Assembly: GCF_001432305.1 (NCBI RefSeq)
Contig: NZ_KQ483358.1
Location: 446,790 to 510,789, forward strand
Reading direction: 5' to 3'
Source of the DNA: Curvibacter sp. PAE-UM
GTDB lineage: Bacteria > Pseudomonadota > Gammaproteobacteria > Burkholderiales > Burkholderiaceae_C
Length of the DNA: 64,000 bases
A program made the position numbers and the translations under genes. The stretch's first letter is position 1; the number at the start of each line of letters is the position of its first letter. The notes beneath the pieces are model-generated. The model did not search any database. It saw only the letters and a program-made list of their open reading frames with translations, and was not told where the DNA came from. This document shows positions 2,595 to 45,812 of this stretch, piece by piece.

Positions 2595-2641
2595 ATTATA
2601 GGGAAGCGGGTCTGCCCGCGGGCACGGGCTGGGCCTAGAAT
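2595..2641. promoter_or_regulatory. Divergent promoter region psd / glcD-like
   Basis: Within the 92-bp divergent gap, TATAAT reads on the minus strand (2595-2600) towards psd, and TAGAAT reads on the plus strand (2636-2641) ending 7 bases before the glcD-like ATG. No good -35 hexamer was found for either. The plus-strand spacing would place the transcript start at or next to the ATG. Confidence 0.4.
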
Positions 2642-2648
2642 CGTCCTC

Positions 2649-4151
2649 ATGAACGCCCCAGCCTCCACCCCGCAGATCGACGCCCTGCAGCGCGCCCAGC
2701 GCCAGTCGCAGGTCGTGCAGGCCCTGGCTTCCGTGCTGCCGGCCCACGCCCTGCTCTGGCAGGCCGAGGACACCACCCCCTACGAATGCGACGGCCTGAC
2801 CGCCTACCGCCAGCGCCCCCTGGTGGTCGCCCTGCCCGAGACCGAGGCGCAGGTGCAGGGCGTGCTCAAGGCCTGCCACGCCCTGGGCGTGCCGGTGGTG
2901 GCGCGCGGCGCCGGCACCGGCCTGTCGGGCGGCGCCATGCCCAACGCCATGGGCGTGACCCTGAGCCTGGCCAAGTTCAACCAGATCCTGAAGATCGACC
3001 CCGTCAGCCGCACGGCCGTGGTCCAGGCCGGCGTGCGCAACCTGGCCATCAGCGAGGCCGCCGCGCCCTACAAGCTCTATTACGCGCCCGATCCGTCCAG
3101 CCAGATCGCCTGCACCATCGGCGGCAACGTGGCCGAGAACTCGGGCGGCGTGCACTGCCTCAAGTACGGCCTGACCGTGCACAACGTGCTGAAAGTCCGT
3201 GGTTACACGGTGGCAGGCGAGCCCATCGAGTTCGGCTCGGAAGCGCTGGACGTGCCGGGTTATGACCTGCTGTCCGTCTTCATCGGCAGTGAGGGCATGC
3301 TGGCGGTGACGGTAGAGGTCACCGTGCGCCTGGTGCCCAAGCCGCAGCTGGCGCGCTGCATCATGGCCAGCTTCGACGACGTGCGCAAGGCTGGCGACGC
3401 GGTGGCCGCGGTGATTGCCGCCGGCATCATCCCGGCCGGGCTGGAGATGATGGACCAGCCCATGACGGCCGCGGTGGAAGATTTCGTGCACGCAGGTTAT
3501 GACCTGAACGCCGCCGCCATCCTGCTGTGCGAGAGCGACGGCACGCCCGAGGAGGTGGAAGAGGAAATCGGCCGCATGAGCGAGGTGCTGCGCAAAGCCG
3601 GTGCCACCGCCATTGCCGTCAGCCGCGACGAGGCCGAGCGTCTGAAGTACTGGAGCGGGCGCAAGAATGCCTTCCCGGCCAGCGGCCGCCTGGCGCCGGA
3701 CTACATGTGCATGGACTCGACCATCCCGCGCAAGCGCCTGGCCGACATCCTGCTGGCGATCCAGGAGATGGAGCAGAAATACGCGCTGCGCTGCCTCAAC
3801 GTCTTCCACGCGGGCGACGGCAACCTGCACCCGCTGATCCTTTTCGATGCGAATGACGCGGACCAGCTGCACCGCTGCGAACTCTTCGGCGCCGACATCC
3901 TGGAGACCAGCGTGGCCATGGGCGGCACGGTGACGGGCGAGCACGGCGTGGGCGTGGAAAAGCTCAACTCCATGTGCGTGCAGTTCAGCACCGAGGAAAA
4001 CGCGCAGATGCTGGCCCTCAAGCGCGCCTTCGATCCGCAGGGCACGCTCAACCCCGGCAAGGTCATCCCCACGCACAACCGCTGCGCCGAGTACGGCAAG
4101 ATGCTGGTGCGCGGCGGCAAGATCAGCCACCCGGACCTGCCTCGCTTCTAG
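2649..4151 (+). CDS. glcD: GlcD-type FAD-linked oxidase (glycolate/D-lactate oxidase family)
   Basis: A 500-residue FAD flavoprotein of the GlcD/VAO family, expected to oxidise a 2-hydroxyacid such as glycolate to glyoxylate or D-lactate to pyruvate. FAD-binding motifs RGAGTGLSGG and CTIGGNVAENSGG, the C-terminal NVFHAGDGNLHP segment and GEHGVGVEK are all present and typical of GlcD. The ATG at 2649 is used because the open frame upstream is the divergent promoter; there is no Shine-Dalgarno. The partner subunits GlcE and GlcF are not here; instead lrgA- and lrgB-like genes follow 87 bp downstream on the same strand. Either it pairs with GlcEF encoded elsewhere or it works as a paralogue with its own electron acceptor. 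Confidence 0.88.
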   Translation: MNAPASTPQIDALQRAQRQSQVVQALASVLPAHALLWQAEDTTPYECDGLTAYRQRPLVVALPETEAQVQGVLKACHALGVPVVARGAGTGLSGGAMPNAMGVTLSLAKFNQILKIDPVSRTAVVQAGVRNLAISEAAAPYKLYYAPDPSSQIACTIGGNVAENSGGVHCLKYGLTVHNVLKVRGYTVAGEPIEFGSEALDVPGYDLLSVFIGSEGMLAVTVEVTVRLVPKPQLARCIMASFDDVRKAGDAVAAVIAAGIIPAGLEMMDQPMTAAVEDFVHAGYDLNAAAILLCESDGTPEEVEEEIGRMSEVLRKAGATAIAVSRDEAERLKYWSGRKNAFPASGRLAPDYMCMDSTIPRKRLADILLAIQEMEQKYALRCLNVFHAGDGNLHPLILFDANDADQLHRCELFGADILETSVAMGGTVTGEHGVGVEKLNSMCVQFSTEENAQMLALKRAFDPQGTLNPGKVIPTHNRCAEYGKMLVRGGKISHPDLPRF

Positions 4152-4156
4152 GATGT

Positions 4157-4227
4157 GGCCCCCTAGCTCCCTGCGGTCGCGTCCCCCCGAGGGGGAACAG
4201 CCCTCCTTGGGAACGGCCCGGCGGAGG
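4157..4227. repeat. GC-rich intergenic hairpin repeat
   Basis: The gap between the glcD-like and lrgA-like genes holds a CCCCCTAGCTCCCTGCGG segment and a TCCCCC-CGA-GGGGGA hairpin (4182-4196). From memory, such segments recur between genes throughout Comamonadaceae chromosomes. Its right end supplies GGAGG (4223-4227), the probable Shine-Dalgarno for lrgA. Copy number was not computed. Confidence 0.5.
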
Positions 4228-4238
4228 TCTGATCGTCG

Positions 4239-4592
4239 ATGAACGCCCTGCGCGGATTCGCCTGGCTGCTGGTCCTGCAATCCGCCGGGGAGCTGCTCGC
4301 ACACGCGCTGCGCCTGCCCTTTCCCGGCCCGGTCGTGGGCCTGGTACTGCTGCTCGCCGCCCTGTACTTCGAAGCCGTGCGCACACCGGTGGCGGCCTGT
4401 GCCGATTTCCTGCTGGCCCATCTCTCGCTGCTCTTCGTGCCGGTGGGCGTGGGCGTGATGACCCACCTGGGCCTGATCGGCGAATACGGCGGGCGCATGC
4501 TCGCCGTCATCGTGCTGTCCACCTGGATCGGCCTGGCCGTCACGGCGCTGGTGCTGCGCGCGCTGATGAAGCAACAAGCTCAGCAGAAGTAA
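4239..4592 (+). CDS. lrgA: CidA/LrgA-family membrane protein
   Basis: A 117-residue hydrophobic protein with about four predicted membrane segments and the family signature FPGPVVGLVLLL near residues 28-39, followed by a charged loop and a FVPVGVGVM segment. Length fits LrgA/CidA (110-140). A GGAGG lies 11 bases upstream of the ATG. It forms a pair with the lrgB-like gene 4 bp downstream. LrgAB was first described as a holin-antiholin-like system of Gram-positive bacteria, but relatives are organic acid transporters: the plastid glycolate/glycerate transporter PLGG1 is an LrgA-LrgB fusion, and a Bacillus pair moves pyruvate. With GlcD upstream the transport reading is favoured (inference). 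Confidence 0.85.
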   Translation: MNALRGFAWLLVLQSAGELLAHALRLPFPGPVVGLVLLLAALYFEAVRTPVAACADFLLAHLSLLFVPVGVGVMTHLGLIGEYGGRMLAVIVLSTWIGLAVTALVLRALMKQQAQQK

Positions 4593-4596
4593 TCTC

Positions 4597-5322
4597 ATGC
4601 AGAACTTCGTCCAGCTCTGGGTCTACCTCTCCAGCACGCCGCTGTTCGGCCTGACGGCCACCATCGCGGTCTACGTGCTGGCGCATGCCTTCTACACGGC
4701 ACGCCAGCAGGCGCCCTGGGCCAACCCGGTGCTGTGGACGGTGCTGGTGATCGCCGGTGTCCTGCTGCTCACCGGCATCCCCTACCCCACCTACTTCTCG
4801 GGGGCACAGTTCATCCACTTCCTGCTCGGGCCTGCCGTGGTGGCGCTGGCCTGGCCGCTGTGGCAGCGCCGCGTGGAGTTGCGCGCACGCTGGGCCCCGC
4901 TGCTGCTGGCGGCCCTCATCGGTGGTGCGGCGGCGGCCGGCTCGGCCTGGGTGCTGGGCCTGGCCTTCGGCCTGCCCACCGACGTGGTGCTGTCCATGAC
5001 GACCAAATCGGTCACGGCGCCGGTGGCCATGGGCGTGGCCGAGAAGATCGGTGGCATCCCCGCGCTGGCCGCGGTGTTTGCCGTGCTCACCGGCATCATC
5101 GGCGCCCTGAGCGGCAAATACCTGTTCGACTTGCTGCGCATCTCCACCACCCAGCCCGGCTGGATGGCGCGCGGCTTCGCGCTGGGCACCACCTCGCACG
5201 GCCTGGGTGCGGCGCGCGCGCTGCAGGTCAACGCCGATGCCGGTGCCTACGCCGGGCTGGCCATGGGCCTGCAGGTGGTGCTGGCCTCGCTGCTGATCCC
5301 GCTGGTGTTCCGCCTGCTGTAA
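4597..5322 (+). CDS. lrgB: LrgB-family membrane protein
   Basis: A 241-residue integral membrane protein with the LrgB signature: a TGIPYPTYFSGAQFIHFLLGPAVVALA segment early on and, in the second half, KSVTAPVAMGVAEKIGG and LGTTSHGLGAARA. About seven membrane segments are likely. It starts 4 bp after lrgA and should form a two-component transporter or pore with it. Its stop codon TAA is also the first three bases of the large inverted repeat 5320-5592, so the repeat abuts the gene without spacer and may act as its transcript end. Substrate is not shown by the sequence; glycolate or another 2-hydroxyacid is suggested by context. Confidence 0.88.
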   Translation: MQNFVQLWVYLSSTPLFGLTATIAVYVLAHAFYTARQQAPWANPVLWTVLVIAGVLLLTGIPYPTYFSGAQFIHFLLGPAVVALAWPLWQRRVELRARWAPLLLAALIGGAAAAGSAWVLGLAFGLPTDVVLSMTTKSVTAPVAMGVAEKIGGIPALAAVFAVLTGIIGALSGKYLFDLLRISTTQPGWMARGFALGTTSHGLGAARALQVNADAGAYAGLAMGLQVVLASLLIPLVFRLL

Positions 5323-5592
5323 GAGCCTGCTTGCGATCTGGAAGGGGCCGCGCAGATGTCTTTTCGGGATGGGATGCAAGGCGCGGTGTGCAGCCCATAG
5401 TTCACTATGGGCAAGCATTGCAACGCCGCAGACCGCCCGAAAAGACAACTGCCCTGCGGGTTGGGACGAAATCGGGCGATTTGCCCACCCATCCCCTTGC
5501 ATGGGCGGCCAGCCCATGCGGCGGGACTGGGCGAGCAACTCATCCCGATTGCGTCCCAACGCGACCCCTTCCAGATCGCAAACAGGCTCTTA
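5320..5592. repeat. 273-bp cloverleaf-like structured repeat element
   Basis: This fills most of the 333-bp gap after lrgB. Terminal arms 5320-5352 and 5560-5592 are inverted copies matching at 31 of 33 positions. Inside are two further long-armed dyads: 5353-5368 with 5436-5451 (15 of 16), enclosing the perfect hairpin GCCCATAG/CTATGGGC (5393-5412), and 5461-5476 with 5544-5559 (15 of 16), enclosing GCATGGGC/GCCCATGC (5499-5519). Drawn out it is one stem carrying two arms. No credible protein is encoded. It resembles a small non-autonomous mobile or REP-like element; no target-site duplication was clear because the left end is the lrgB stop codon. Confidence 0.8.
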
Positions 5593-5655
5593 GCCAGGCC
5601 GGGGGCGAGCTGGTGCAGAATTTGCCCCATTCTTTTTCAACACTGGAGTGACACC

Positions 5656-6627
5656 ATGTTCCTGAATCTCAAGCGCCGCACCCTGGGCCTGACCGCAGCG
5701 GCCCTGCTTTTCGCCGGCCAGGCCCTGGCCGAACCCGCCACCATCAAGATCATGGTGGGCTTCCCGCCCGGCGGCGGCACCGACGCCATCGCCCGCGTGC
5801 TGGCCGAGAAGCTCAAGGACCAGCTGGGCGCCAACGTCATCGTCGAGAACAAGGCCGGTGCCGGCGGCCAGCTGGCCGCCCAGGCGCTCAAGGCCGCGCC
5901 GGCCGACGGCACGGTGCTCTTCCTCTCGCACGACCACACCATCACCGTGATCCCGCTCACGATGAAGAACCCGGGTTTCGACCCGGCGCAGGACTTCGTG
6001 CCGGTGGCCGGTTTCGCCACCTTCGTCAACGGCCTGGCCCTGTCGGGCGGCACGCCGGCGAAAAGCTACAAGGAGTACCTGGCCTGGGTGCGCGAGAGCG
6101 GCAAGGGCAAGGGCACGGTGGGCGTGCCGGCCCCGGCCTCGGTGCCCGAATTCCTGGTCAAGGTGATGGGCCAGAAGAACGGCCTGGACCTGCAGGCCGC
6201 ACCCTACCGCGGCAGCGCCCCCATGATGGGCGACATGCTGGGCAACCAGATCGCTGCCGGCGTGGGCTCGGTGCCGGACTTCATCGAGAACCACAAGGCC
6301 GGCAAGATCCGCATGGTGGCCGTGATCGGCACCAAACGCCAGGCCATCCTGCCCGAGGTGCCGACCTTTGCCGAACTGGGGCTGAGCGGCTTCGAGGACC
6401 TGCCCTACTACGGCATCTTCGCGCCCAAGGGCACGCCCAAGGCCACCCTGGAGCGCTACTCGGCCGCGCTGGCCAAGGTCATCGCCCTGCCCGAGGTGCA
6501 TGAGCGCCTGACCGCCATGGGCCTGAGCGTGGGCCACATGACGTCCGAGCAATTGGGCCAGCGCGAGCGCGCCTACAGCGAGAGCTGGGCGCGCATCATC
6601 AAGGCCAGCGGCTTCCAGGCGCAGTGA
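5656..6627 (+). CDS. Bug/TctC-type periplasmic solute receptor
   Basis: A complete 323-residue Bug receptor. Residues 1-25 are a signal peptide (basic start, hydrophobic core, cleavage after ALA). The mature protein opens with the family motif VGFPPGGGTDAIAR, then IVENKAGAGGQLA, and in the second lobe PYRGSAPMMGDMLG and PEVPTFAELGL. The ATG at 5656 has a GGAG 7 bases upstream; a longer frame runs back into the structured repeat and is rejected. Bug proteins bind carboxylates such as citrate, glutamate or aspartate; ligand here is unknown. It follows the lrgAB pair on the same strand, separated by the repeat, so co-transcription is doubtful. Confidence 0.92.
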   Translation: MFLNLKRRTLGLTAAALLFAGQALAEPATIKIMVGFPPGGGTDAIARVLAEKLKDQLGANVIVENKAGAGGQLAAQALKAAPADGTVLFLSHDHTITVIPLTMKNPGFDPAQDFVPVAGFATFVNGLALSGGTPAKSYKEYLAWVRESGKGKGTVGVPAPASVPEFLVKVMGQKNGLDLQAAPYRGSAPMMGDMLGNQIAAGVGSVPDFIENHKAGKIRMVAVIGTKRQAILPEVPTFAELGLSGFEDLPYYGIFAPKGTPKATLERYSAALAKVIALPEVHERLTAMGLSVGHMTSEQLGQRERAYSESWARIIKASGFQAQ

Positions 6628-6633
6628 CGTGAC

Positions 6634-6653
6634 GCCGGCCCCCGCGGGCCGGC
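6634..6653. terminator. Strong GC hairpin between converging genes
   Basis: GCCGGCCC-CCGC-GGGCCGGC is an 8-bp perfect stem between the receptor gene and the converging chemoreceptor gene. There is no T run on either side, so it may be a weak or factor-dependent end. Confidence 0.4.
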
Positions 6654-6666
6654 CCGCAAGCTGTAC

Positions 6667-9505: not shown

Positions 9506-9509
9506 CCCT

Positions 9510-10130
9510 TTAATCCTTCAACAGCGCGATCACTTCCTCGTCTTCCACCTGCTGGAAGTTCTGGTAGAACTGGCCCACGGCCTGGAACCACTCGGGCGTC
9601 TCCAGGCACACCACCTCGTCGGCCAGCGTCCGCACTTTCTCCAGCGTATCGGGCGGCGCCACTGGCACGGCGCACACCAGTTTGGCCGGCTTCTGCTGGC
9701 GCAACCCGTGCAGGGCAGCGATCATGGTGGCGCCGGTGGCCAGGCCGTCGTCGACCACGATCACGGTGCGGCCGGCCGGATTGATGTGCGCGCGCAAGGG
9801 GGTGTACTGGACGCGGCGCTGGCGTATGGTCTCCAGCTGCTGGCGCTTTTCCGCTTCGATGTACTGCGCGTCGGCCCCTGTGCTGGCAGCAAAGGGGGCC
9901 ATATAGGTCCAACCGCTTTCGTCGACCGAGCCGATCGCCAGTTCGGGCTGGCCGGGTGCGCGCAGCTTGCGCACCAGCACCACGTCGAAATCGCCCTTCA
10001 GGCGCTCGGCAATGACCTTGGCCATGGGCACGGCGCCGCGCGGGATGGCCAGCACCAGCGGCCGCTGGCCCCGGTAGGCAGCGAGTTGTTCGGCCAGCCG
10101 CTCGGCGGCTTGAATTCGATCACGGAACAT
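9510..10130 (-). CDS. Phosphoribosyltransferase family protein
   Basis: A 206-residue type I phosphoribosyltransferase fold protein. The PRPP-binding loop is TVIVVDDGLATGATM, and the early LAIPRGAVPMA segment and YTPLRAHINPAGR are typical of a hydrolase-linked subgroup rather than of Apt, Hpt or PyrE. ATG 10130 has a GGGAG 6 bases upstream; upstream codons in frame run into the divergent arginase promoter. The 24-bp gap to the arginase start means the two divergent promoters overlap. Its target base is unknown. The converging small hydrolase is the conserved companion. Confidence 0.85.
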   Translation of the reverse strand: MFRDRIQAAERLAEQLAAYRGQRPLVLAIPRGAVPMAKVIAERLKGDFDVVLVRKLRAPGQPELAIGSVDESGWTYMAPFAASTGADAQYIEAEKRQQLETIRQRRVQYTPLRAHINPAGRTVIVVDDGLATGATMIAALHGLRQQKPAKLVCAVPVAPPDTLEKVRTLADEVVCLETPEWFQAVGQFYQNFQQVEDEEVIALLKD

Positions 10131-10154
10131 GCTTGTCTCCCGCAAAATGGCCAC

Positions 10155-11102
10155 ATGCCAACTGCATTGAAGCACGAGATCGAACTCATCGGAGCGCCGG
10201 CCGATGCCGGGGCCGGAGTGCCGGGTGCCCGTCTGGGGCCTGGCGCCCTGCGTGGGGCCGGGCTAGCAGCGGCCTTGCGTGCGCTGGGCTGGTCCATGCA
10301 CGATGCTGGCAACCTGGACGGCCCCACACCCTCGGTACAGACGGTGGCAGACGGCTACCGCAACCTGGCGCAGGTCACGGCCTGGAACCGGACCGTGCAC
10401 GATGCCGTGACCCGGGCGCTGGACCGGGGACGCCTGCCCCTGCTGCTGGGCGGCGACCACAGCCTGGCCATCGGCTCCATCAGCGCCGTGGCACGCCACT
10501 GCCGCGCCAGCGGCCAGCCTCTGCGCGTACTCTGGTTCGACGCCCATGCCGATTGCAACAGCCGCCGCACCAGCCCCAGCGCCAATCTGCACGGCATGCC
10601 GGTAGCTTGCCTGTGCGGGGTGGGCCCCATGGAGCTGTGCGGGCTGGGCGGCCGCGTCCCGGCGCTCGTGTCGTCCGAGCTGCGCCTGATCGGCGTGCGC
10701 AGCGTGGACCCGGGCGAGGCACAGCTGGTGCAGCGCCTGGGGCTGCAGGTGAGCGGCATGGACACCTTGCGCACAGAGGGCGCGGACGCCGTGATGGCGC
10801 ACGCACTGAAGGATCTGCCTGCCAACGCGCATCTGCATGTCAGCCTGGACCTGGACTTCCTGGACCCCGAGGTCGCGCCCGGCACGGGGACGACGGTGGC
10901 CGGTGGCGCCAGCCTGGAGCAGGCCCGCCAGTGCCTGCAGCTGATCGCGCGGTGCGGCCGGCTGGGCTCGCTGGACGTGATGGAACTCAACCCGGCGCTG
11001 GATCGGGACCAGCGGACGACCCGCCATGCGCTCGACCTGATCGCCGCGCTGCTGGGTGCGGGCCCGGCCCGCCGCGCCTCAGGCGATCTCGGCCGGACGT
11101 GA
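10155..11102 (+). CDS. rocF: Arginase family protein
   Basis: A 315-residue member of the arginase/ureohydrolase superfamily, which hydrolyses arginine to ornithine and urea using two manganese ions. Metal ligands are visible in order: GGDHS, WFDAHADCNS and SLDLDFLDP. The GAPADAGAGVPGARLGPGALR start matches arginase proper more than agmatinase; formiminoglutamase is possible. A CAAAAT hexamer ends 6 bases before the ATG and there is no Shine-Dalgarno, so the message may be leaderless. The last 24 bp overlap the 3' end of the converging GGDEF/EAL gene. No other arginine catabolism genes are adjacent. Confidence 0.87.
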   Translation: MPTALKHEIELIGAPADAGAGVPGARLGPGALRGAGLAAALRALGWSMHDAGNLDGPTPSVQTVADGYRNLAQVTAWNRTVHDAVTRALDRGRLPLLLGGDHSLAIGSISAVARHCRASGQPLRVLWFDAHADCNSRRTSPSANLHGMPVACLCGVGPMELCGLGGRVPALVSSELRLIGVRSVDPGEAQLVQRLGLQVSGMDTLRTEGADAVMAHALKDLPANAHLHVSLDLDFLDPEVAPGTGTTVAGGASLEQARQCLQLIARCGRLGSLDVMELNPALDRDQRTTRHALDLIAALLGAGPARRASGDLGRT

Positions 11103-14516: not shown

Positions 14517-15218
14517 TTACCGGGTCACCGAGGCATTGTCCGCCTGCGGTGCCACCAGCCCCGGCAGCACCTCCCGCGCACCCGCCATGAAGTGGCGGAT
14601 GGTAAGCCGGATCAGCGCGTCCAGGTCGGCCTCCAGCGGCACATCGAAAATCCAGCGCCGTTGCCCGAAATAGAAGATGCGCGCGTTGATGCCCCAGACC
14701 AGTTCGATCTCCAGTTCGCCCAGCGGCACGTCCTGTGGCCCCGGCAGGCCCAGCTCGGCACGCAGTTCGATGGCCACCGGTTCGAGCACGCGGCTGCGCA
14801 GGAAGTGCAGGTAGCGCTGGTTGATGGCTTCGCCCTTGAGTCCGGAAAACATGAACAGGCGCACCCAGTCCCGGGTCAGGGCGGTCTTCGCGTAGTCGCT
14901 GTACAGGCGCGTCAGCCGCTCCTCCAGCGGCACGCGCCGGTCGGCGATGATGACTTCCCAGTAGGGGTTCCAGCGCCCCACATAGACCTCCTGGTAGACC
15001 CGCTCGATCAGCGCCGCCTTGCTGGGGAAGTACTTGAAGATCAGCGACTGCGTGACGCCCACGCGCCGCGCCAGTTCACGCGTGTCGCCATCGAAGCCGA
15101 CCTCGGCGAAGAACTGCACCGCGGCCTCGACGATGGCCTTTTCGCGCGCCTCGCCCGCCAGGCGCCGGCGCGGGCCGACGGCGGCCGGCTTGGCGGATGC
15201 AGCAGCTGGGCTTGTCAT
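14517..15218 (-). CDS. TetR/AcrR-family transcriptional regulator
   Basis: A 233-residue regulator. The N-terminal DNA-binding domain covers about residues 20-68: AIVEAAVQFFAEVGFDG, then TRELARRVGVTQSLIFKYFPSKAALIE, a classic TetR helix-turn-helix. The remainder is an all-helical ligand and dimer domain. It is divergent from the enol-lactonase-like hydrolase gene with a 55-bp gap containing a TGATC-N4-TGATC element, so it probably represses itself and the hydrolase/monooxygenase genes. A TAAGAT hexamer ends 7 bases before its ATG. Inducer unknown. Confidence 0.9.
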   Translation of the reverse strand: MTSPAAASAKPAAVGPRRRLAGEAREKAIVEAAVQFFAEVGFDGDTRELARRVGVTQSLIFKYFPSKAALIERVYQEVYVGRWNPYWEVIIADRRVPLEERLTRLYSDYAKTALTRDWVRLFMFSGLKGEAINQRYLHFLRSRVLEPVAIELRAELGLPGPQDVPLGELEIELVWGINARIFYFGQRRWIFDVPLEADLDALIRLTIRHFMAGAREVLPGLVAPQADNASVTR

Positions 15219-15223: not shown

Positions 15224-15237
15224 TGATCTTAATGATC
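15224..15237. promoter_or_regulatory. Candidate operator in tetR-hydrolase divergent gap
   Basis: TGATC-TTAA-TGATC is a short repeat with palindromic GATC cores and a central TTAA. It lies 6 bp from the TetR-family start, overlaps that gene's -10-like hexamer and resembles the perfect dyad at 16071-16084. Confidence 0.35.
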
Positions 15238-21495: not shown

Positions 21496-22826
<1,331 letters not shown>

Positions 22827-31727: not shown

Positions 31728-33167
<1,440 letters not shown>

Positions 33168-33200
33168 TTAACGTACCAAAGGTCAGACCGGAGTGCTGTT

Positions 33201-34079
33201 TTACACAGCAGCCGCACCCGCCACGATTTCCGACAGCTCTTTCGTGATCGCTGCCTGACGCGTCTTGTTGTAGACCAGCTTGAGTTCACCGATCACGCTG
33301 CCTGCGTTGTCGGTGGCAGCCTTCATGGCCACCATCCGGGCCGACTGCTCCGAAGCCATGTTCTCGGCCACGGCCTGGTAAACCAGCGCCTCGACGTAGC
33401 GCAGCAGCAGTTCGTCGATGACGGCCTGGGCGTCGGGCTCGTAGATGTAGTCCCAGCCATGCTGGGGGCCGCTGGCTTGCGCCTCGGCTTCCATCTTGGC
33501 CGCCGACAAGGGCAGCAGCTGCGTGACCACCGGCTCCTGCTTCATGGTGTTGATGAACTTGGTGTAGCACAGATACACCGAATTCAGTTCGCCACGCGCA
33601 TAAGCGTCGAGCAGCACCTTGACCGGGCCGATCAGCTTTTCCAGATGCGGCGTATCGCCGAGCTGGGTCGACTGCGACACCACCTTGGCGCCGATGCGGT
33701 TGAGGAAACCCAGGCCCTTGTTGCCAATGGCCACCGCCTGCATGCTGACGCCTTCACCCTGCAACTCGCGCAACTTGTTGGTCACGCCACGCAGCACGTT
33801 GGTGTTGAGGCCACCGCACAGGCCTTTGTCCGTGGTCACGACGATCATGCCGGCCGTCTTGGCGTCATTCACCCGCATGAACGGATGGGTGTACTCCGGG
33901 TTGGCCTTGCCGAGGTTGGCGGCAATGTTGCGCACCTTCTCGCTGTAGGGACGGGCGGCACGCATACGCTGCTGCGCCTTGCGCATCTTCGACGCGGCCA
34001 CCATTTCCATGGCCTTGGTGATCTTCTTGGTGTTCTCCACCGATTTGATCTTGCCGCGTATTTCCTTACCTGCTGCCAT
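33201..34079 (-). CDS. atpG: ATP synthase F1 subunit gamma
   Basis: A 292-residue central-stalk subunit. N-terminal coiled-coil helix begins [36 protein letters not shown], and the C-terminal helix has [17 protein letters not shown]. The [11 protein letters not shown] motif is conserved. Located between atpA (29 bp upstream) and atpD. Confidence 0.98.
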
Positions 34080-34108
34080 GAGTGGCTCCTTGGATCGTCA
34101 GGTCGGAA

Positions 34109-35662
34109 TCAGGCGAAGGTCTTCTTGAACGCGGCAATCGCAGCGCTCAACTCGGCTTCGGCATCCTTGTCCATGGCCTTGGCAGCTTCCAGCTTGGCCA
34201 GCAGCGCAGCGCACTTGTCCTTCAGGTAGCCATGCAGGCCGTGCTCGAAGGACAGCACTTTCTTGACCTCGATGTCGTCCAGGAAACCCTTGTTCACGGC
34301 GAACAGCGAAGCGGCCATCAGGCTGATGGACAGCGGGCTGTATTGCGCCTGCTTGAGCAACTCGGTCACGCGGGCACCGCGGTCCAGCTGCTTGCGGGTG
34401 GCCTCGTCCAGGTCGGAAGCAAACTGCGCGAAGGCAGCCAGCTCACGGTACTGGGCCAGGTCGGTACGGATACCGCCGGACAGGTTCTTGATCAGCTTGG
34501 TCTGGGCAGCACCACCGACGCGCGACACCGAGATACCGGCGTTGATGGCGGGGCGGATACCGGCGTTGAACAGGCTGGTTTCCAGGAAGATCTGGCCGTC
34601 GGTGATCGAGATCACGTTGGTCGGCACGAAGGCGGACACGTCACCGGCTTGGGTTTCGATGATCGGCAGCGCGGTCAGCGAGCCGGTCTTGCCCTTGACG
34701 GCGCCCTTGGTGAAGGCTTCGACGTAGTCGGCGTTCACGCGAGCGGCACGCTCCAGCAGACGGCTGTGCAGATAGAACACGTCGCCGGGGTAGGCTTCGC
34801 GGCCCGGCGGGCGGCGCAGCAGCAGCGAAACCTGGCGGTAGGCCACGGCCTGCTTGGACAGGTCGTCATAAACGATCAGCGCGTCTTCACCGCGGTCGCG
34901 GAAGTATTCGCCCATGGTGCAGCCGGAGTAGGCCGACACGTACTGCATGGCAGCGGATTCAGAGGCGGTGGCGGCCACGACGATGGTGTATTCCATCGCG
35001 CCGGCCTGCTCCAGGGCACGCACCACGTTCTTGACGCTGGAGGCCTTCTGGCCGATCGCGACATAAACGCAGGTCATGTTCTGACCCTTCTGGTTGATGA
35101 TCGCGTCGATGGCCACGGCGGTCTTGCCGGTCTGGCGGTCGCCGATGATCAGTTCGCGCTGGCCGCGACCGACCGGCACCATGGCGTCGATCGACTTCAG
35201 GCCGGACTGCATGGGCTGGTCCACCGACTGGCGGGCGATCACGCCCGGAGCGACCTTCTCGATCACGTCGGTCATCTTGGCGTTGATCGGACCCTTGCCG
35301 TCGATCGGCTGACCCAGGGCGTTGACCACGCGGCCGATCAGCTCGGGGCCGACCGGCACTTCCAGAATGCGGCCCGTGCACTTGACGGTATCGCCTTCGG
35401 AGATGTGCTCGTACTCGCCCAGAATCACGGAGCCGACGGAGTCGCGCTCAAGATTCAGGGCCAGGCCGTAGGTGGGCTGGCCATCCTTGCCGGCCGGGAA
35501 TTCGAGCATTTCGCCCTGCATCACATCCGACAGGCCGTGGATACGGCAGATGCCGTCGGTCACGGACACCACGGTACCCTGGTTACGGATGTCGGCGCTG
35601 GCGGACAGGCCTTGAATCCGGCTCTTGATCAGTTCAGAGATTTCTGCGGGATTGAGTTGCAT
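34109..35662 (-). CDS. atpA: ATP synthase F1 subunit alpha
   Basis: A 517-residue non-catalytic nucleotide-binding subunit. P-loop [13 protein letters not shown], arginine finger region [10 protein letters not shown], and the N-terminal [17 protein letters not shown] helix that contacts delta are all present. Fifty bp after atpH. Confidence 0.98.
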
Positions 35663-35712
35663 GACTCTTTCCTTCTTTCCTTGGGTTGGGCTGACAGCTC
35701 GGGCGGGACGCC

Positions 35713-36243
35713 TCAGGCAGTGAGAGCCACTTTCATTTGTTCCAGACGGGCCTTGACGGAGGTGTCGAGCACCTCGTCACCGACCACCACGCGGATGCCA
35801 CCGATCAGTTCGGGCTGCAATTCGACGGACACGTTCAGCTTGCGGCCGAAGCGTTTTTCCAGCGTCGCCTTGACGTCGACCAGCGCCGCACCATCGATGG
35901 CAAAGGCGCTGTACACGACGGCATCAGAAGAGCCGCTCTGGGCGTTCTTCAGGGCACGAAACTGGGCCGCGATTTCCGGCAGCACGCTCAGACGGCCGTT
36001 GTCGATGACGGTGCGCAGAAAGTTCTTGGCGGCATCGTTCAGGGGGGCCTTGGCCACCCCGGCGATCACGTCGAACACCTGCTGTGCCGTCGCATTCGGG
36101 TTCTCGGCAAACTGCTGCAGCTGCGGATTGCCCGCAATCACAGCCAGCTCCTCGACCCAGACGGCCGCACCGGCCAGATCGGCCACGGTCGCCTTGAAAA
36201 GCGCTTCAGCGTAGGGACGGGCAATGGTGGCAAGTTCAGCCAT
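35713..36243 (-). CDS. atpH: ATP synthase F1 subunit delta
   Basis: A 176-residue peripheral-stalk subunit joining F1 to subunit b. The start [16 protein letters not shown] and the C-terminal beta strand [25 protein letters not shown] are diagnostic. Nine bp downstream of atpF. Confidence 0.97.
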
Positions 36244-36252
36244 GGGATCCTC

Positions 36253-36723
36253 TTACAGCTCAGTCTTCAAACGACCCAGCAGGTCCGCATGGACGCTGGC
36301 GTTGACTTCCTTGCGCAGAATCTGCTCGGCGCCCTTGACGGCCAGTGCGGCCACCTGCTCACGCAGGGCCTCACGTGCCTTGACCGTCTGCTGCTCGGCG
36401 TCGGACTTGGCAGCAGCAACAATCTTGTTGCCCTCTTCCGTCGCCCTGGCCTTGGCTTCCTCGATGATGGTCTGCGCGCGACGCTCGGCATCAGCCAGGC
36501 GGGCGGCAGTCTCATTGCGCGACTTCGCCAGCTCGTCTTCCACGCGCTTGTTGGCGGCGGACAGTTCGGACTTGGCCTTGTCGGCAGCAGCGAGGCCGTC
36601 GGCGATCTTCAGCGCGCGCTCATCCAGCGCCTTGGCAATCGGAGGCCACACAAACTTCATCGTGAACCCGACCAGGATCAGGAACACGATCATCTGAATG
36701 ATGAGGGTACCGGTAATGCTCAT
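36253..36723 (-). CDS. atpF: ATP synthase F0 subunit b
   Basis: A 156-residue subunit with one N-terminal membrane helix (about 7-26) followed by a long charged coiled-coil ([26 protein letters not shown] onwards). It forms the peripheral stalk as a dimer. Located between atpE and atpH. Confidence 0.97.
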
Positions 36724-36784
36724 GTTTCATCCTTCACCCTGACGTGCCCACGCACGCCGGGGAATGTTTTGTGTCCGGCGGAGC

Positions 36785-37069
<285 letters not shown>

Positions 37070-37103
37070 TTAAAAAGAGAAAGGAAAAAGGGAATAGCGG
37101 GAC

Positions 37104-37952
37104 TCAATGCGCGTCATGCGCCTGACCGAGGTAGACCAGGGTCAGCATCATGAACACAAAGGCCTGCAAGGTGATGATCAGGATGTGGAAGATCGCCCAC
37201 GCCGTGCCGGCGATGACGTGGCCGATGGCCAGGCCGATGCCGGTGGCCGACATCGACCACGCACCGCCCATCAGGGCGATCAGCATGAAGATCAGTTCGC
37301 CGGCATACATATTGCCGAACAGTCGCATGCCGTGCGAAACGGTCTTGGCGATGAACTCGATGATCTGCATCATGAAGTTGAAGGGCCACAGCAGCGGATG
37401 GGCACCGAAGGGGGCGGTGAACAGCTCATGGATCCAGCCGCCTGCGCCCTTGATCTTGATGTTGTAGTAAATGCAGATCAGCAGCACGGCCAGGGACAGG
37501 CCCATGGTGACCGACAGGTCGGCAGTGGGCACCACACGCATGTAATCCTTCATGCCCACCGCCGGGCCGGCGCTGTGCCACAGGGCCGGGATCAGGTCGA
37601 CCGGCAGCAGATCCATGGCGTTCATCATGAAGATCCAGACGAACACGGTCAGCGCCAGAGGAGCCACGAACTTGCGGCTTTCGGCGTTGTGCACGATGCC
37701 CTTGGCCTGCGCATCCACCATCTCGACCAGGATCTCCACCGCAGCCTGGAAACGACCCGGCACACCCGAAGTGGCCTTGCGCGCGGCCAGCCAGAGCAGC
37801 CAGCAGCCCAGCACCCCGAGGGCGATCGAGAAGAACAGGGAATCGAAGTTGAAAACCGAGAAGTCGGCAACCGCCTTGGGCGCCTGGTTTTGCAGATGAT
37901 GCAGGTGGTGAACGATGTACTCGCCTGCGGTCAGTCCGGTTTCAGCACTCAT
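37104..37952 (-). CDS. atpB: ATP synthase F0 subunit a
   Basis: A 282-residue membrane subunit that forms the proton half-channels. The essential arginine lies in [14 protein letters not shown], and the conserved glutamine-rich last helix is [19 protein letters not shown]. About five to six membrane segments. Thirteen bp downstream of atpI. Confidence 0.97.
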
Positions 37953-38448: not shown

Positions 38449-38495
38449 GTCAAATCACACCCGGATCCAGCTTTGGCAACGCCACAAAGCCTTAG

Positions 38496-38524: not shown

Positions 38525-38630
38525 CAGTACCTGACTAGAACATTAAAAAAGCGCCCCCATATGGTTTCACCACCAGCCAGCGCAAGCGCCGCGCGCTCAT
38601 CGCCACCACCCTTGCTGCCATAATTTGGCC

Positions 38631-39536
38631 ATGCCATCCACCGCTCTGCCCGCCCTGCCCTGCTATCTCAACGGTGAGTACACACTGCTACCGGATGCAA
38701 AAGTCAGCGTCATGGACCGCGGCTTCATCTTTGGCGACGGGATTTATGAAGTGGTCCCGGTCTATGGCCGCTGCCTGTTCCGCTTCGAGCAGCACATGGC
38801 CCGGCTGGAGCGCAGCCTGGCCGAACTGCGCATCCCCAACCCGCACACACGCAGCCAGTGGCGCGCCATCGCCGAGCAACTGGTCGCCGACTTCGCCCGC
38901 GGCACGGACGAGGACCCGGAAAAGATCGAACAGATGGTCTACATCCAGGTCACGCGCGGCGTCGCCATGCGCGACCATGCCATGCTGCCCGGGCTCACGC
39001 CCACGGTGTTTGTCATGACCAACACCATGAAACTCCCCGCCGAGCGCCTGCGCCAGGACGGCGTGAATTGCGTGACAGCCGAAGACTTCCGCTGGGAGAA
39101 GGCGCATATCAAGAGCACCAGCCTGTTGGGCGCGGTGCTGGCACGCCAGATCAGCGTAGACGCCGGCGCCACCGAGACCCTCATGTTCCGCGCGGGCCAG
39201 CTCAGCGAGGGCGCGTCCAGCAATGTCTGGATCGTCAAGGACGGCGTGCTGCTGGGCCCGCCCCGCGACAATCTGGTGCTCGAAGGCATACGCTACGGCC
39301 TGCTGGAGGAAATCTGCAAGACCCACGGCATCCCCTTCGAGCTGCGCAGCATCTCCCGCCAGGAAGTTCTGGCGGCCGACGAAGTACTGCTGAGCTCGGC
39401 CACCAAGGAAGTGCTGCCCGTGACCCGCATCGATGGCCAGCCCGTGGGGGACGGCCACCCCGGCCCCATCTACGCCCAACTCTACGCCGGCTACCAGGCC
39501 GCCAAACTGCAGGCCCGCCTGCGCCGCCCAGCATGA
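38631..39536 (+). CDS. dat: D-amino acid aminotransferase (class IV)
   Basis: A 301-residue fold-type IV PLP enzyme that interconverts D-amino acids and 2-oxoacids, feeding D-glutamate or D-alanine to peptidoglycan. The start YLNGEY, DRGFIFGDGIYEVVPVYGR, the PLP lysine in AHIKSTSLLGAVLA and GASSNVWIVKDG are typical of D-AAT rather than branched-chain IlvE. ATG 38631 is preferred over TTG 38625. CATAAT ends 6 bases before it and there is no Shine-Dalgarno. Followed by ybeD with ATGA overlap. Confidence 0.88.
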   Translation: MPSTALPALPCYLNGEYTLLPDAKVSVMDRGFIFGDGIYEVVPVYGRCLFRFEQHMARLERSLAELRIPNPHTRSQWRAIAEQLVADFARGTDEDPEKIEQMVYIQVTRGVAMRDHAMLPGLTPTVFVMTNTMKLPAERLRQDGVNCVTAEDFRWEKAHIKSTSLLGAVLARQISVDAGATETLMFRAGQLSEGASSNVWIVKDGVLLGPPRDNLVLEGIRYGLLEEICKTHGIPFELRSISRQEVLAADEVLLSSATKEVLPVTRIDGQPVGDGHPGPIYAQLYAGYQAAKLQARLRRPA

Positions 39537-39820
39537 GCACCCAGCCCCCCAGCCCCTCGCGCACCGACAGCCTGATCGAGTACCCCTGCCGTTTCCCCAT
39601 CAAGGTGATGGGTGCCAAGGCCGAGGGCTTCGTGCATGCCGTGACCACGGTGGCCCGCCAGTTCGACCCCACGTTTGATGCCGCCTCCATCGAACTGCGC
39701 GAAAGCAAGGGCGGCAACTACCTGGGCGTGACCATCACCATCAACGCCACCAGCCGCGAGCAGCTCGACGAGCTCTACCGCACGCTGTCCACACACCCCA
39801 TGGTGAAAGTGGTCCTCTGA
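39533..39820 (+). CDS. ybeD: YbeD family protein (DUF493)
   Basis: A 95-residue small alpha/beta protein of the YbeD/DUF493 family, typically encoded just before lip[14 protein letters not shown] and [35 protein letters not shown] segments are diagnostic. Its function is unknown; a link to lipoate metabolism rests on gene order only. It overlaps dat by 4 bp and shares one base with the lipB start. Confidence 0.93.
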
Positions 39821-40503: not shown

Positions 40504-40514
40504 AGGCACCCTGC

Positions 40515-41507: not shown

Positions 41508-41525
41508 ACCAGCCCAGCCCTTCGA

Positions 41526-43295
41526 TCAGGTGCCCATGGCAGCCGACGGCTCGTCGGCGTTCAGCACCGTCTGCGCCCAGGGCTGCAGGCGCGTCGTATC
41601 GGCGCGCAGCACCTCCTGCTTGACCGCCAGGATCTGGGCCGGGTGCATGGAGAAGCTGCGCAGGCCCAGGCCCAGCAGCAACCGTGTCATGGCGATATCG
41701 CCGGCCATCTCGCCGCAGACGCTGACCTCCTTGCCCTGCGCGCGGCATTCGGAAATCGTGTCAGCCACCAGGCGCAACACGGCCGGGTGCAGCGGGTCAT
41801 AGAGATGAGCCACCGACTCGTCAGCCCGGTCGATCGCCAGGGTGTACTGGATCAGGTCATTGGTACCTAGCGACAGATAGTCAAAGTACTTGAGAAAGGT
41901 CTTGAGCATCAGCGCTGCCGCCGGAATCTCGATCATGGCGCCCAGCGACACCTGCCCGAATATCCGCCCTTCGCGCTGCAGCTCGGCACGCGCCTGTTCG
42001 ACCAACGCCACGGTCTGACGGATCTCGCTCAGATGCGCCAGCATGGGGATCAGCATCTTGACCGGTCCGTGTGCAGCGGCACGCAGGATGGCACGCAACT
42101 GGGTCAGGAACATGGACGGATCGGCCAGGCTCCAGCGTATGGCACGCAGGCCCAGGGCCGGGTTGAGGTGACTGCCTTCGACGATGTTGCTGTCCATGGG
42201 CTTGTCAGCGCCAATGTCCACGGTACGGATGGTGACCGGCAGCCCCGCCATGCCCTCGACCGCGCGGCGGTAGGCCTGGTACTGCTCCTCCTCGTCCGGC
42301 AGATGGCCGAGCCGTCCCATGAAGAGGAATTCGCTGCGGAACAGGCCGACGCCCACGGCGCCAGCCTTCAGGGCCACAGGCGCATCCTCCGGCATCTCGA
42401 TATTGGCCAGCAGCTCGACCTTCTCGCCGTCCAGCGTGACGGCCGGCGTATTCAGCAGGCGTCCCAGGCGACCGCGCTCCAGGTCGCGCTGGCGTTGTTT
42501 GTACTGGTACTCGGCCAGGATGATGGGCGAAGGGTCGACGATCACCACGCCGGCATCGCCGTCGATGATGACCCAGTCATCCTGGCGCACCAGCTGGCTG
42601 GCGGTGCGTGCGCCCACCACGGCCGGGATGTCCATGCTGCGCGCCACGATGGCGGTGTGCGAGGTCTTGCCCCCGACGTCGGTGACAAAACCGGCAAACA
42701 GGCCTTGCTTGAACTGCAGCATGTCCGATGGCGAGATCTCGTGCGCGATCAGCACCAGCGGTGTGTCCGTGTCCTCCAGCTGCAATTCAGCCGATGGCGC
42801 CTTGCGCGCGGCGGCGATGCCGGCAGGCAGACCGGAGGTGGTCTGGCCCTGCATGGCACGCAAGACCTTTTCGGTGATCTGCTCCAGGTCGGCCTTGCGC
42901 TCGCGCAGGTATTCATCCTCCATCTCGTCGAACTGGCGCGCCACCATCTCCAGCTGGGTGGTCAGCGCCCACTCGGCGTTGTAGAGCCGGTCGCGTATCC
43001 AGTGCTTGACGCCGCCCACCATCTCCTCGTCCTGCAGCAGCATGAGGTGCACGTCGAGCAGGGCTCGCAGCTCGTGCGGCGCATCCTTGGGCCCGAGTTG
43101 GGAGATGGTCTGCTGCAGGCGGTGGAGCTCGTCGACCACCGCATCGCGCCCGCGCTTCACACGCTCGATCTCGCGCTCCACCTGGGCGGGCTCAATGAAG
43201 TAGTGCGCCACGTCCACCCGGCTGCTGGCCACCAGCACGGCACGCCCGATGGCAATGCCGCGCGCGACGGCCAAGCCGTGGATGGAGAAGGTCAT
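41526..43295 (-). CDS. ptsI: Phosphoenolpyruvate-protein phosphotransferase (PTS Enzyme I)
   Basis: A 589-residue Enzyme I, passing phosphate from PEP to HPr. The phospho-histidine is in GGKTSHTAIVARS; the PEP-binding barrel has GVGLFRSEFLFMGR, SLGTNDLIQYTLA and VCGEMAGD with the catalytic cysteine. Length is close to enterobacterial EI (575). Forty bp downstream of ptsH. Upstream partner EIIA-Man is present but no EIIB or EIIC is seen. Confidence 0.96.
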   Translation of the reverse strand: MTFSIHGLAVARGIAIGRAVLVASSRVDVAHYFIEPAQVEREIERVKRGRDAVVDELHRLQQTISQLGPKDAPHELRALLDVHLMLLQDEEMVGGVKHWIRDRLYNAEWALTTQLEMVARQFDEMEDEYLRERKADLEQITEKVLRAMQGQTTSGLPAGIAAARKAPSAELQLEDTDTPLVLIAHEISPSDMLQFKQGLFAGFVTDVGGKTSHTAIVARSMDIPAVVGARTASQLVRQDDWVIIDGDAGVVIVDPSPIILAEYQYKQRQRDLERGRLGRLLNTPAVTLDGEKVELLANIEMPEDAPVALKAGAVGVGLFRSEFLFMGRLGHLPDEEEQYQAYRRAVEGMAGLPVTIRTVDIGADKPMDSNIVEGSHLNPALGLRAIRWSLADPSMFLTQLRAILRAAAHGPVKMLIPMLAHLSEIRQTVALVEQARAELQREGRIFGQVSLGAMIEIPAAALMLKTFLKYFDYLSLGTNDLIQYTLAIDRADESVAHLYDPLHPAVLRLVADTISECRAQGKEVSVCGEMAGDIAMTRLLLGLGLRSFSMHPAQILAVKQEVLRADTTRLQPWAQTVLNADEPSAAMGT

Positions 43296-43335
43296 GCCTC
43301 GTCTCCTGGAGCATCGGCCAGACGGCTGTGCATGA

Positions 43336-43605
43336 TCATTCGCCCTCGCCGAACTTGTCGTTGATCAGCACCAGCAGCGCATCCACGGCCTCCTGGGCAC
43401 GCTCGCCCTGGGCCTCGATCTCGACCACGCTGCCCAGGCCGGCGGCCAGCATCATCACACCCATGATGCTCTTGGCGTTCACGCGCCGCTCACCGCGGGA
43501 CAGCCAGACTTCGCAAGGGAAGCTGCCCGCCATCTTGGTGAGCTTGGCCGAGGCTCGGGCATGCAGTCCGAGCTTGTTGCTGATGGTGACACTGGCCTTG
43601 ATCAT
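43336..43605 (-). CDS. ptsH: Phosphocarrier protein HPr
   Basis: An 89-residue HPr. Phosphorylated histidine H15 in LGLHARASAKL and the regulatory serine S46 in AKSIMGVMML are at canonical positions. S46 would be the target of HPr kinase, which is common in Betaproteobacteria but not in this window. Central gene of the EIIA-HPr-EI cluster. Confidence 0.97.
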   Translation of the reverse strand: MIKASVTISNKLGLHARASAKLTKMAGSFPCEVWLSRGERRVNAKSIMGVMMLAAGLGSVVEIEAQGERAQEAVDALLVLINDKFGEGE

Positions 43606-43638
43606 TCCTTGGTCCCTATCTTTCGTCCGTTCAAATCG

Positions 43639-44028
43639 TCACACCGTCGTCACCTGCAGCACGCCCTGGGTGCCGCCTTGCAGGGCACGGGCCAGCAGTT
43701 CGTCCAGCGGCTCGTGCTGGTAGGTCACGGCACGCAGCAGCATGGACAGGTTCACCCCCGCCAGCAGGCGCGCCCGACGTCCTTCCAGCAGCTGACGTGC
43801 CACATTGCAGGGCGTGGCACCCAGCACGTCGGTCAGCAGCAGCAGCGGGGCCTGCCCCAGCGGGCCGACGGCCTGCCGTGCCTGCGCCACGCTCTGGGCG
43901 ACCGGCGCATCCGGCAACACGTCCACGGCCACCACCCCGCCCAAGCGGTCAGGAAAGACGTGGGCCACGCACTGGCGCAGCGCACTGGCCAGCGGCGCAT
44001 GGGCAATGATGACGATGCCGTTGTTCAT
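43639..44028 (-). CDS. PTS EIIA component, mannose family
   Basis: A 129-residue EIIA of the mannose family, phosphorylated on H10 in IVIIAHAPLA. TDVLGATPCNVARQLLEG matches the family core. Without EIIB/EIIC nearby it is probably part of a regulatory rather than sugar-uptake chain, as known for Ralstonia and relatives. Ten bp after an MFS gene on the same strand. Confidence 0.9.
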   Translation of the reverse strand: MNNGIVIIAHAPLASALRQCVAHVFPDRLGGVVAVDVLPDAPVAQSVAQARQAVGPLGQAPLLLLTDVLGATPCNVARQLLEGRRARLLAGVNLSMLLRAVTYQHEPLDELLARALQGGTQGVLQVTTV

Positions 44029-44038
44029 GCTGACCTGA

Positions 44039-45259
44039 TTATGTCTTTTTCGCCACCAGGAAATAGAGATAGGACAGCAGGTTCAGCAGCAGAAACACGG
44101 CCAGCGCCCCCTGGAAGGCCTGCACCTGGGCCCAGCCCTGCGCGGCAAAGGCATCGATCAGCAGGCCGATGCCCCACTGCACCACGAACACCCCGGCAAA
44201 AATGACCAGGTTGTAAGCCGAAAGAGCCCGCCCTGCGAGTTCTGCGGGGAAGGCCATGCCCACGGCCGGCTGCGCCAGCGATAGAAAGGTGGAACTGACG
44301 CAGAACAGCGCCCACAGCAAGCCTGCATGGCGGGCCCCGGATTCGCCGGCCATCACGATGATCGCCAGCAGCAACAGGCTCAGCGGGGTGCCCCAGGCGA
44401 TCAACTGGTTGGTGTGCACACCACGCCGTGTCAGTCGCGGAATCAACAGGCCCCAGGACCAGAAGGTGGCCAGCATGGCCACATTGATCCAGAACAGGCT
44501 GGTGGCCGCCTGCACCGGCGTGTAGCCAGCGACACGGGTCATCCAGGGCACGGCCCACAAGGTCTGGATGGCCACCATGCCACCGTAGTTGAAGAAGCCC
44601 AGCGGTGTCAGGCGACGGAAATAGGCATGCCGCCAGACCTCTGTATAACTGCCCGCCGCTTTTCCTGCAACGGGGGCGCTCACCGTCTTTTGCCAGCGCG
44701 GCACTTGCCAGGCGATCACCACCATGGACAACAACAACATGGCCGCCAGACCCCAGAACAGGGGACGCCAGCCGTAGTCCGGCAGCAACCATTGCACCGG
44801 CAGCGTGGAGGCCACCATGCCCATGGAGCCTGTCATCAGCATCCAGGAATTCGCACGCAGCTGGCTGGCCGGATCCAGCCAGCGCCGGAAACCGGTCAGT
44901 GGCGCCATCAGGCAGGCCGCCAGGCCGATGCCGCAAAGCACACGCGCCACCAAGAGGCCCGAGAAACTCGTGGCCTGCGAGAAGGCCAGGCAGCCGATGG
45001 CGGCCACGGCCAGAAAACCGAGGATGACGGTCTTCGGCCCCTGCCGGTCCAGCCAGCGTCCCAGGGGCAGTTGCATGGCAGCAAAACCGAGAAAGTATCC
45101 CCCGGCGAGCAGCCCCAGATCGCGCGCATGCAGACTGAACTCCTGGGTCAGCTGTGGCGAGAGCGTGGCGGTGATCGCGCGGATCAACGCCGAGAAAAAA
45201 TAGGCAAAGGCAAAGGCCAGGAAAACCAGTACCGCCCCACGGCGGCTCAGGACATTCAT
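44039..45259 (-). CDS. MFS transporter
   Basis: A 406-residue major facilitator with twelve predicted membrane helices. The loop 2-3 motif is GRWLDRQGPKTV, a variant of the MFS G-x-x-x-D-R/K pattern. ATG 45259 has TGGAG 5 bases upstream and overlaps the stop of the preceding lipoprotein gene by 4 bp. It precedes the PTS EIIA gene by 10 bp, suggesting shared transcription. Substrate unknown; no family-specific signature recognised. Confidence 0.88.
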   Translation of the reverse strand: MNVLSRRGAVLVFLAFAFAYFFSALIRAITATLSPQLTQEFSLHARDLGLLAGGYFLGFAAMQLPLGRWLDRQGPKTVILGFLAVAAIGCLAFSQATSFSGLLVARVLCGIGLAACLMAPLTGFRRWLDPASQLRANSWMLMTGSMGMVASTLPVQWLLPDYGWRPLFWGLAAMLLLSMVVIAWQVPRWQKTVSAPVAGKAAGSYTEVWRHAYFRRLTPLGFFNYGGMVAIQTLWAVPWMTRVAGYTPVQAATSLFWINVAMLATFWSWGLLIPRLTRRGVHTNQLIAWGTPLSLLLLAIIVMAGESGARHAGLLWALFCVSSTFLSLAQPAVGMAFPAELAGRALSAYNLVIFAGVFVVQWGIGLLIDAFAAQGWAQVQAFQGALAVFLLLNLLSYLYFLVAKKT

Positions 45260-45768
45260 GGCAGCTCCAGGCCACTGAAGAAGGGCTCGTTCATCTCGGT
45301 AGCGATGCGCTCGGCATAGATGACGGCGTGGTACAAGCGCGTGCCATGGGCAAACCACACAGCCTCAGCGGCCACCGGCTGGCCATCGGGTCGCAGGCCC
45401 TGGGCCTTCAGGCGTACGGGCTCCAGCATGGCATTCGCGCCCTTGAGGGCCCAGGCACTGCTGGTCGAAGTGGTGGCCTGCATATTCCCCAACAGATTGG
45501 CCTGCCATTGCACCTGCACGGCCAGCGCCTGCTTGGCATTCCCGAGTTCGACCACTGACACGGCGTACAGGGCCCCGGCGGCCTCGCAGCCCAACATCTG
45601 CACCTCGATCTCCCGGCCCGCCAGATTCTGCCGGCGGCTGCCCTGGTCCGGCTTGCAGGGCAGCAATGCCTTGAGCTCGCCGCCGGGCCGGACCTCGCGC
45701 CAGTTGAGGGTAGGGCTGCAGGCAGCCAGCAGAAGGGCTGTGCCCAGAAGCAGGAAATGACGGTACAT
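45256..45768 (-). CDS. Hypothetical lipoprotein
   Basis: A 170-residue protein with a lipoprotein signal: basic start, hydrophobic stretch and lipobox LAAC (lipidated Cys17). The mature part has two further cysteines (LLPCKPDQ and MLGCEAAG) that could form a disulfide. I do not recognise the family. GATAAT ends 6 bases before ATG 45768. The 3' end overlaps the MFS gene start as ATGA, so the lipoprotein and transporter are coupled. Confidence 0.8.
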   Translation of the reverse strand: MYRHFLLLGTALLLAACSPTLNWREVRPGGELKALLPCKPDQGSRRQNLAGREIEVQMLGCEAAGALYAVSVVELGNAKQALAVQVQWQANLLGNMQATTSTSSAWALKGANAMLEPVRLKAQGLRPDGQPVAAEAVWFAHGTRLYHAVIYAERIATEMNEPFFSGLELP

Positions 45769-45812
45769 CCGCAAATTATCCCCGCCGAAGCAGCGTGAAC
45801 ATCGCGGGCGCA

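Follow-up and report, generated by a model that had tools for sequence, protein, structure and literature searches.

Six hexamers beside start codons

We investigated six hexamers that lie directly upstream of start codons in a 64,000-nucleotide stretch of Curvibacter sp. PAE-UM DNA (the window). The genome measures 3.63 Mb, with 65% G+C, and the window covers positions 446790-510789 of its main contig. A first-pass annotation had read them as TANNNT-like -10 promoter elements 6-7 bases before an ATG and had proposed that the six genes are leaderless. Here, spacing is the number of bases between the end of a hexamer and the start codon, and TANNNT is the pattern that we counted genome-wide. 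The coordinates, strands and spacings of all six hexamers are correct. Their likeness to TANNNT is partial: TAGAAT, TAAGAT and TATCAT fit the pattern, and CAAAAT, CATAAT and GATAAT lack its first T.

Three hexamers are on the minus strand. TATCAT (22768-22773) stands 7 bases before the ATG of a diaA-type gene of the phosphoheptose isomerase / DiaA family (22161-22760, minus strand). GATAAT (45775-45780) stands 6 bases before the ATG of a lipoprotein gene (45256-45768, minus strand), the translation of which has 170 amino acids and a LAAC lipobox. TAAGAT (15226-15231) stands 7 bases before the ATG of a TetR-family regulator gene (tetR; 14517-15218, minus strand; PF00440) and overlaps a GATC-N5-GATC dyad. 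The other three are on the plus strand. TAGAAT (2636-2641) is 7 bases before the ATG of a gene for a glycolate oxidase GlcD-like FAD-linked oxidase (glcD-like; 2649-4151, plus strand; 735 bits, under the equivalog cut-off of 897). CAAAAT (10143-10148) is 6 bases before the ATG of an arginase gene (10155-11102, plus strand; TIGR01229, 242 bits against a cut-off of 227.6), and CATAAT (38619-38624) is 6 bases before that of a D-amino-acid transaminase-like class IV aminotransferase gene (dat; 38631-39536, plus strand; PF01063, with the D-amino-acid transaminase models below cut-off).

Judged from its sequences, the genome is that of a betaproteobacterium in or near Comamonadaceae. In a protein search against named genomes, the diaA product matched a Burkholderiales metagenome-assembled genome (MAG) with 100% identity; MAGs of Hylemonella, Curvibacter, Rhodoferax and Polaromonas were among the relatives that followed. 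A Deinococcus origin, suggested at first by the style of the sequence, was rejected in view of these Burkholderiales relatives and of the F-type ATP synthase genes in the window. The 16S rRNA tail of the genome carries the usual CCTCC anti-Shine-Dalgarno sequence.

Enrichment of TANNNT before start codons across the genome

The sample consisted of the window and 60 further segments, each 20 kb long; together they make up 1.26 Mb, or 35% of the genome. Gene starts were called from codon usage alone, and the upstream sequence had no part in the choice of start. The retained caller was trained on G+C at third codon positions (GC3) and gave 1081 genes, with 49 hexamers against about 10.4 expected. 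A caller trained on the longest open reading frames performed poorly on this high-GC sequence (842 genes, many with GTG or TTG starts) and was dropped; it gave 34 hexamers against 7.5 expected, and the excess in this genome is present under both callers.

The first-pass annotation had looked to a genome-wide enrichment over shuffled controls, and this was found: TANNNT stands at spacing 6-7 in 49 of the 1081 genes, against 10.5 ± 3.1 (maximum 19) when the last 40 bases upstream of the starts were dinucleotide-shuffled in 100 rounds. The counts were 31 at spacing 6 and 18 at spacing 7, with 0, 3 and 12 at spacings 5, 8 and 9, over a background at offsets 20-109 with a mean of 5.18 per offset (standard deviation 2.92, maximum 14). 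The 72 called genes of the window contribute 3 at spacing 7 and none at spacing 6 (0.20 per offset at 20-109). Because the window is left out, the remaining 1009 genes are independent of the choice made by the first-pass annotation, and their counts are 31 (spacing 6) and 15 (spacing 7) over a background of 4.98 per offset. No peak was seen at ATGs that are not gene starts: among 6606 in-frame internal ATGs, TANNNT occurs 3 times at spacing 6 and 4 times at spacing 7 (background 4.57), and among 3796 out-of-frame ones the counts are 0 and 5 (background 2.93). The positional signal is real, and about 3-4% of called genes carry it above chance (an excess of about 3.6%).

Of the 49 genes that carry the signal, nine begin within 40 bases of a preceding same-strand gene; for the remaining 1032 the count is 396. 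The fifth base of the hexamer is A in 30 of 49, against 30% of 271 hexamers at control offsets. A Pfam scan (25 commonest families) found four TetR_N, two GntR and two MarR_2 members among the 49, and two HTH_1 and two HTH_IclR members among 49 random non-operon ATG genes drawn from 402; this is suggestive of regulators among the hits.

The same hexamers could belong to AT-rich, unstructured initiation regions of leadered mRNAs, recognized through ribosomal protein S1 or low structure, instead of being promoters. Zheng et al. 2011 (PMC3160421) describe non-Shine-Dalgarno AT-rich signals in bacteria, the count at spacing 9 is somewhat over background, and no conserved -35 element accompanies the hexamers (see below). 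However, the main excess is confined to two offsets, with 0 at spacing 5 and 3 at spacing 8, and the diaA hexamer described next is near-invariant at a spacing of 5 to 10 amid diverged flanks, which better fits a site of protein-DNA contact. We regard this explanation as unlikely.

Conservation of the diaA hexamer

The product of the diaA gene scores above the family cut-offs of NCBIfam PRK13936 (337.4 against 276 bits) and gmhA (214.3 against 209.45), and below that of the DiaA equivalog model (210.8 against 352). The neighbours of the gene are a UPF0102 gene resembling yraN on one side and a gene with a BON domain on the other, and RsmI is also encoded nearby. We use the name diaA because of the label given by the first-pass annotation together with these neighbours; the neighbours RsmI, UPF0102 and BON have the same order in E. 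coli. The gene is a candidate regulator of replication initiation.

Among the best 80 of 357 named diaA loci, all 80 have TATCAT (79) or TATGAT (1) 6-9 bases before the ATG. In genomes of the same family, with protein identity down to 46%, a near-consensus hexamer lies 5-10 bases before the ATG in 67 of 72, comprising 60 TATCAT, 6 TATGAT and 1 TACAAT. When the family set is aligned on the hexamer, only its six bases are clearly conserved, with a weak signal at the base that follows, and the flanks have diverged; among the closer named loci, two G ahead of the hexamer also stand out. Such near-fixation of a start-adjacent hexamer at diaA was not found in print in the literature searched, which is a part of all literature.

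The 65 diaA loci from other families of the order divide into 13 with the hexamer near the ATG, 30 with it only further up and 22 with none. The hexamers further up lie 16-63 bases before the start, and 21 of the 30 lie at 27-37. Control bins six bases wide hold one (12-17 bases) and two (18-23 bases) of the 65 loci, so one or two of the 13 near cases may be chance. The 13 exceed an assumed baseline of 4% (p = 1.6e-6). Seven other-family loci (L301, L307, L310, L312, L313, L365 and L391) have AATAAT directly after TGC, 27-30 bases before the start, which looks like an extended -10 element.

These distributions also bear on the idea that the conserved hexamers at diaA and the lipoprotein gene are operators or other DNA sites, with the promoters further up. 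TATCAT/TATGAT is stricter than a generic -10 element, and the dyad overlapped by the tetR hexamer could be an operator. Against this, only six bases and weakly a seventh stand out in the wide diaA family set, and most operators are larger than six or seven conserved bases. Furthermore, 30 of the 65 other-family loci have hexamers of TATAAT, TAGAAT or AATAAT type at leadered distance upstream of diaA, as expected if a -10 element had moved. We consider such sites quite improbable.

A DiaA tree of 136 proteins puts the family on one side of one branch. On this tree the near state requires 4 changes inside the family; outside it, 10 changes account for the 12 near cases, or at least 6 when only well-supported branches are trusted. 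The tree is a quick one in which 57 of 133 inner branches are weakly supported. Its simplest reading would be a single shift at the family base, followed by a few losses, with shifts occurring repeatedly in other families. The hexamer may have been kept at the start because leaderless expression is itself selected, for example for translation under stress or by 70S ribosomes, with one shift at the family base and, by the tree, six to ten more in other families; we think this rather doubtful.

The lipoprotein gene

Of 29 lipoprotein loci, 24 have a near hexamer 5-9 bases upstream of an in-frame ATG, against 0.5 expected from other offsets; without the window's own locus the count is 23 of 28. 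The hexamers are GATAAT (21), CATAAT (2) and AATAAT (1), and they are kept even though the other lipoproteins are only 32-56% identical to that of the window. The protein had no match in Pfam or NCBIfam at E 0.001. Based on these comparisons, diaA and the lipoprotein gene are the solid candidates for leaderless genes in the window.

The lipoprotein gene opens a minus-strand run (41526-45768) that continues with an MFS transporter, EIIA, HPr and PtsI. The phosphotransferase system encoded beside it may be regulatory.

The remaining four genes

The proposal that all six genes are leaderless held up less well here. For dat, the strict hexamer is present in 6 of 30 loci including the window's own (5 of 29 others; 0.0 expected), and a same-genus ortholog lacks it. 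For glcD, it is present in 3 of 30 (2 of 29 others; 0.3 expected), and looser hexamers such as TACAGT bring this to 12 of 30 (11 of 29 others). In both genes a minority of loci carries the hexamer, and a leaderless start limited to certain lineages is plausible.

Seven tetR loci were usable, including that of the window. In two of the others, TATGAT or AATAAT precedes some in-frame ATG by 5-9 bases (0.0 expected); the TAAGAT of the window occurs in none of the six others, four of which are without any strict near hexamer. A leaderless start is possible for this gene. Two more relatives of the regulator, at 65% and 45% identity, are encoded in the same genome (G000:C1:2789068-2789745 and G000:C1:1883211-1883756).

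The strict hexamer is absent from all 30 arginase loci, the window's own included. A looser hexamer is found only at the window's own gene and in none of the 29 others, one of the same genus among them. CAAAAT lies just upstream of a GGGAG that belongs to a divergent phosphoribosyltransferase gene, and it is probably a chance match. The likely ATGs of these two divergent genes are 24 bases apart (10130-10155); the promoters of the two are therefore expected to extend into coding sequence or start codons.

The arginase hexamer, without support from any other locus, and the tetR hexamer, with little, are what might be expected if all six hexamers had been picked out by eye and matched by chance. 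This is refuted for the whole set by the enrichment in the held-out part of the genome and by the conservation of the diaA and lipoprotein hexamers, and we give it next to no weight.

Elsewhere in the window, a minus-strand run (31728-37952) includes the F-type ATP synthase alpha subunit (atpA, 34109-35662, 807 bits) and, by DNA similarity, the beta subunit. Using Rfam at gathering thresholds, the only match in the window was a tRNA.

Shine-Dalgarno, -35 and initiator signals

The first-pass annotation had held that at least four of the six genes lack a Shine-Dalgarno sequence, and duplex energies with the 16S tail agree: -0.9 for dat, -1.5 for arginase, -2.9 for diaA, -3.0 for tetR, -3.8 for glcD and -5.9 for the lipoprotein gene. 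The median of the other 1032 genes is -4.05; five of the six are weaker, and the lipoprotein gene is stronger. Shine-Dalgarno 4-mers precede 1 of the 49 leaderless-like genes against 402 of the 1032 others. At diaA, 2 of the 72 family loci have such a 4-mer upstream, as do 12 of the 65 loci from other families. In 68 of 72 family genomes the diaA start is directly preceded by C, compared with 29 of 65 loci of other families; such a base would suit a pyrimidine-A initiator, with transcription starting at the A.

With the usual geometry of a -10 element, the spacing seen here puts the transcription start at, or about three bases from, the ATG. Directly observed were the positional enrichment, the missing peak at internal ATGs, the weak or missing Shine-Dalgarno sequences and the conservation of the hexamer beside the ATG amid diverged flanks. 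From these we infer that in a subset of genes the hexamer is probably the -10 element of a housekeeping-type promoter. RNA polymerase would begin at the start codon or no more than about three bases from it, and the resulting mRNA, beginning at or next to its AUG, would be translated with neither a leader nor a Shine-Dalgarno sequence.

Several results weigh against a promoter of this kind. The lack of Shine-Dalgarno sequences is partly geometric, since a hexamer at -13 to -7 fills the Shine-Dalgarno zone. Five of the 72 family diaA loci are without a near hexamer (two have one only further up, three have none). No conserved -35 element was found upstream of the diaA hexamer, neither in 69 family loci (2.41 matches against 2.62 in shuffled sequence) nor in the 80 named loci (2.51 against 2.63); for 39 other-family loci the values are 2.77 against 2.65. 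The 49 genome hits show no significant rise either (2.73 against 2.64 ± 0.13, with a small rise at spacer 17), and a small -35 excess is found for 271 TANNNT at 30-79 bases before starts (2.82 against 2.69 ± 0.05). A promoter scan at diaA detected nothing. A pyrimidine precedes the start in 40 of the 49 genome hits against 723 of 1032 other genes, which is not significant (p = 0.11). A -35-poor or activated promoter is possible.

Samples of control genomes add to these points, as neither Cupriavidus (1 of 146 genes with TANNNT at spacing 6-7; 1.6 expected) nor Variovorax (2 of 131; 0.6 expected) showed a clear excess. E. coli likewise showed none (1 of 118 annotated starts; 4.2 expected), and an excess was seen on a D. 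deserti plasmid (5 of 97 genes; 1.0 expected). With the longest-frame caller they were 0 of 138 for Cupriavidus (1.4 expected), 0 of 74 for Variovorax (0.3), 2 of 164 for E. coli (5.1) and 5 of 96 for D. deserti (1.0). The Cupriavidus sample is a 200 kb piece of the C. metallidurans megaplasmid, with few genes. Given their small size, all of these controls offer no more than a rough guide.

Relation to known leaderless genes

The signal is of a known type, that of promoter-type (TA-led) leaderless genes. In Zheng et al. 2011 (PMC3160421), a TANNNT located some 12 bp before the start is taken as a -10 box and the gene hence as leaderless, and 9 of 71 beta-proteobacterial genomes are listed with TA-led genes, at a mean of 6.8%. 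Those figures are percentages per genome group, whereas single genes were tracked across a family here. In B. cenocepacia J2315, passages of PMC4603805 report 72 genes that start exactly at the codon and 42 more that start within 10 nt, with 24 of the transcripts being tRNAs; a TA-rich motif lies directly upstream of the leaderless transcripts, and regulators are over-represented. That organism belongs to the same order, but its starts were measured, and these passages do not name diaA. According to PMC7563307, 4.67% of primary starts in C. metallidurans CH34 give a leader of less than 5 nt, an experimental value similar to our estimate of 3-4% of genes. No literature pairing leaderless genes with Comamonadaceae, or with diaA, was found in the searched collection, which is not the whole literature.

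Gene callers that take no account of -10 signals may set the starts of such genes wrongly; GeneMarkS-2 reportedly models leaderless genes. The lineage near Comamonadaceae would be one more among the betaproteobacteria in which a small yet genuine share of genes is leaderless. At diaA, near and leadered positions of the hexamer can be compared among orthologs of many families, and this comparison would make it testable why some genes lose their leader.

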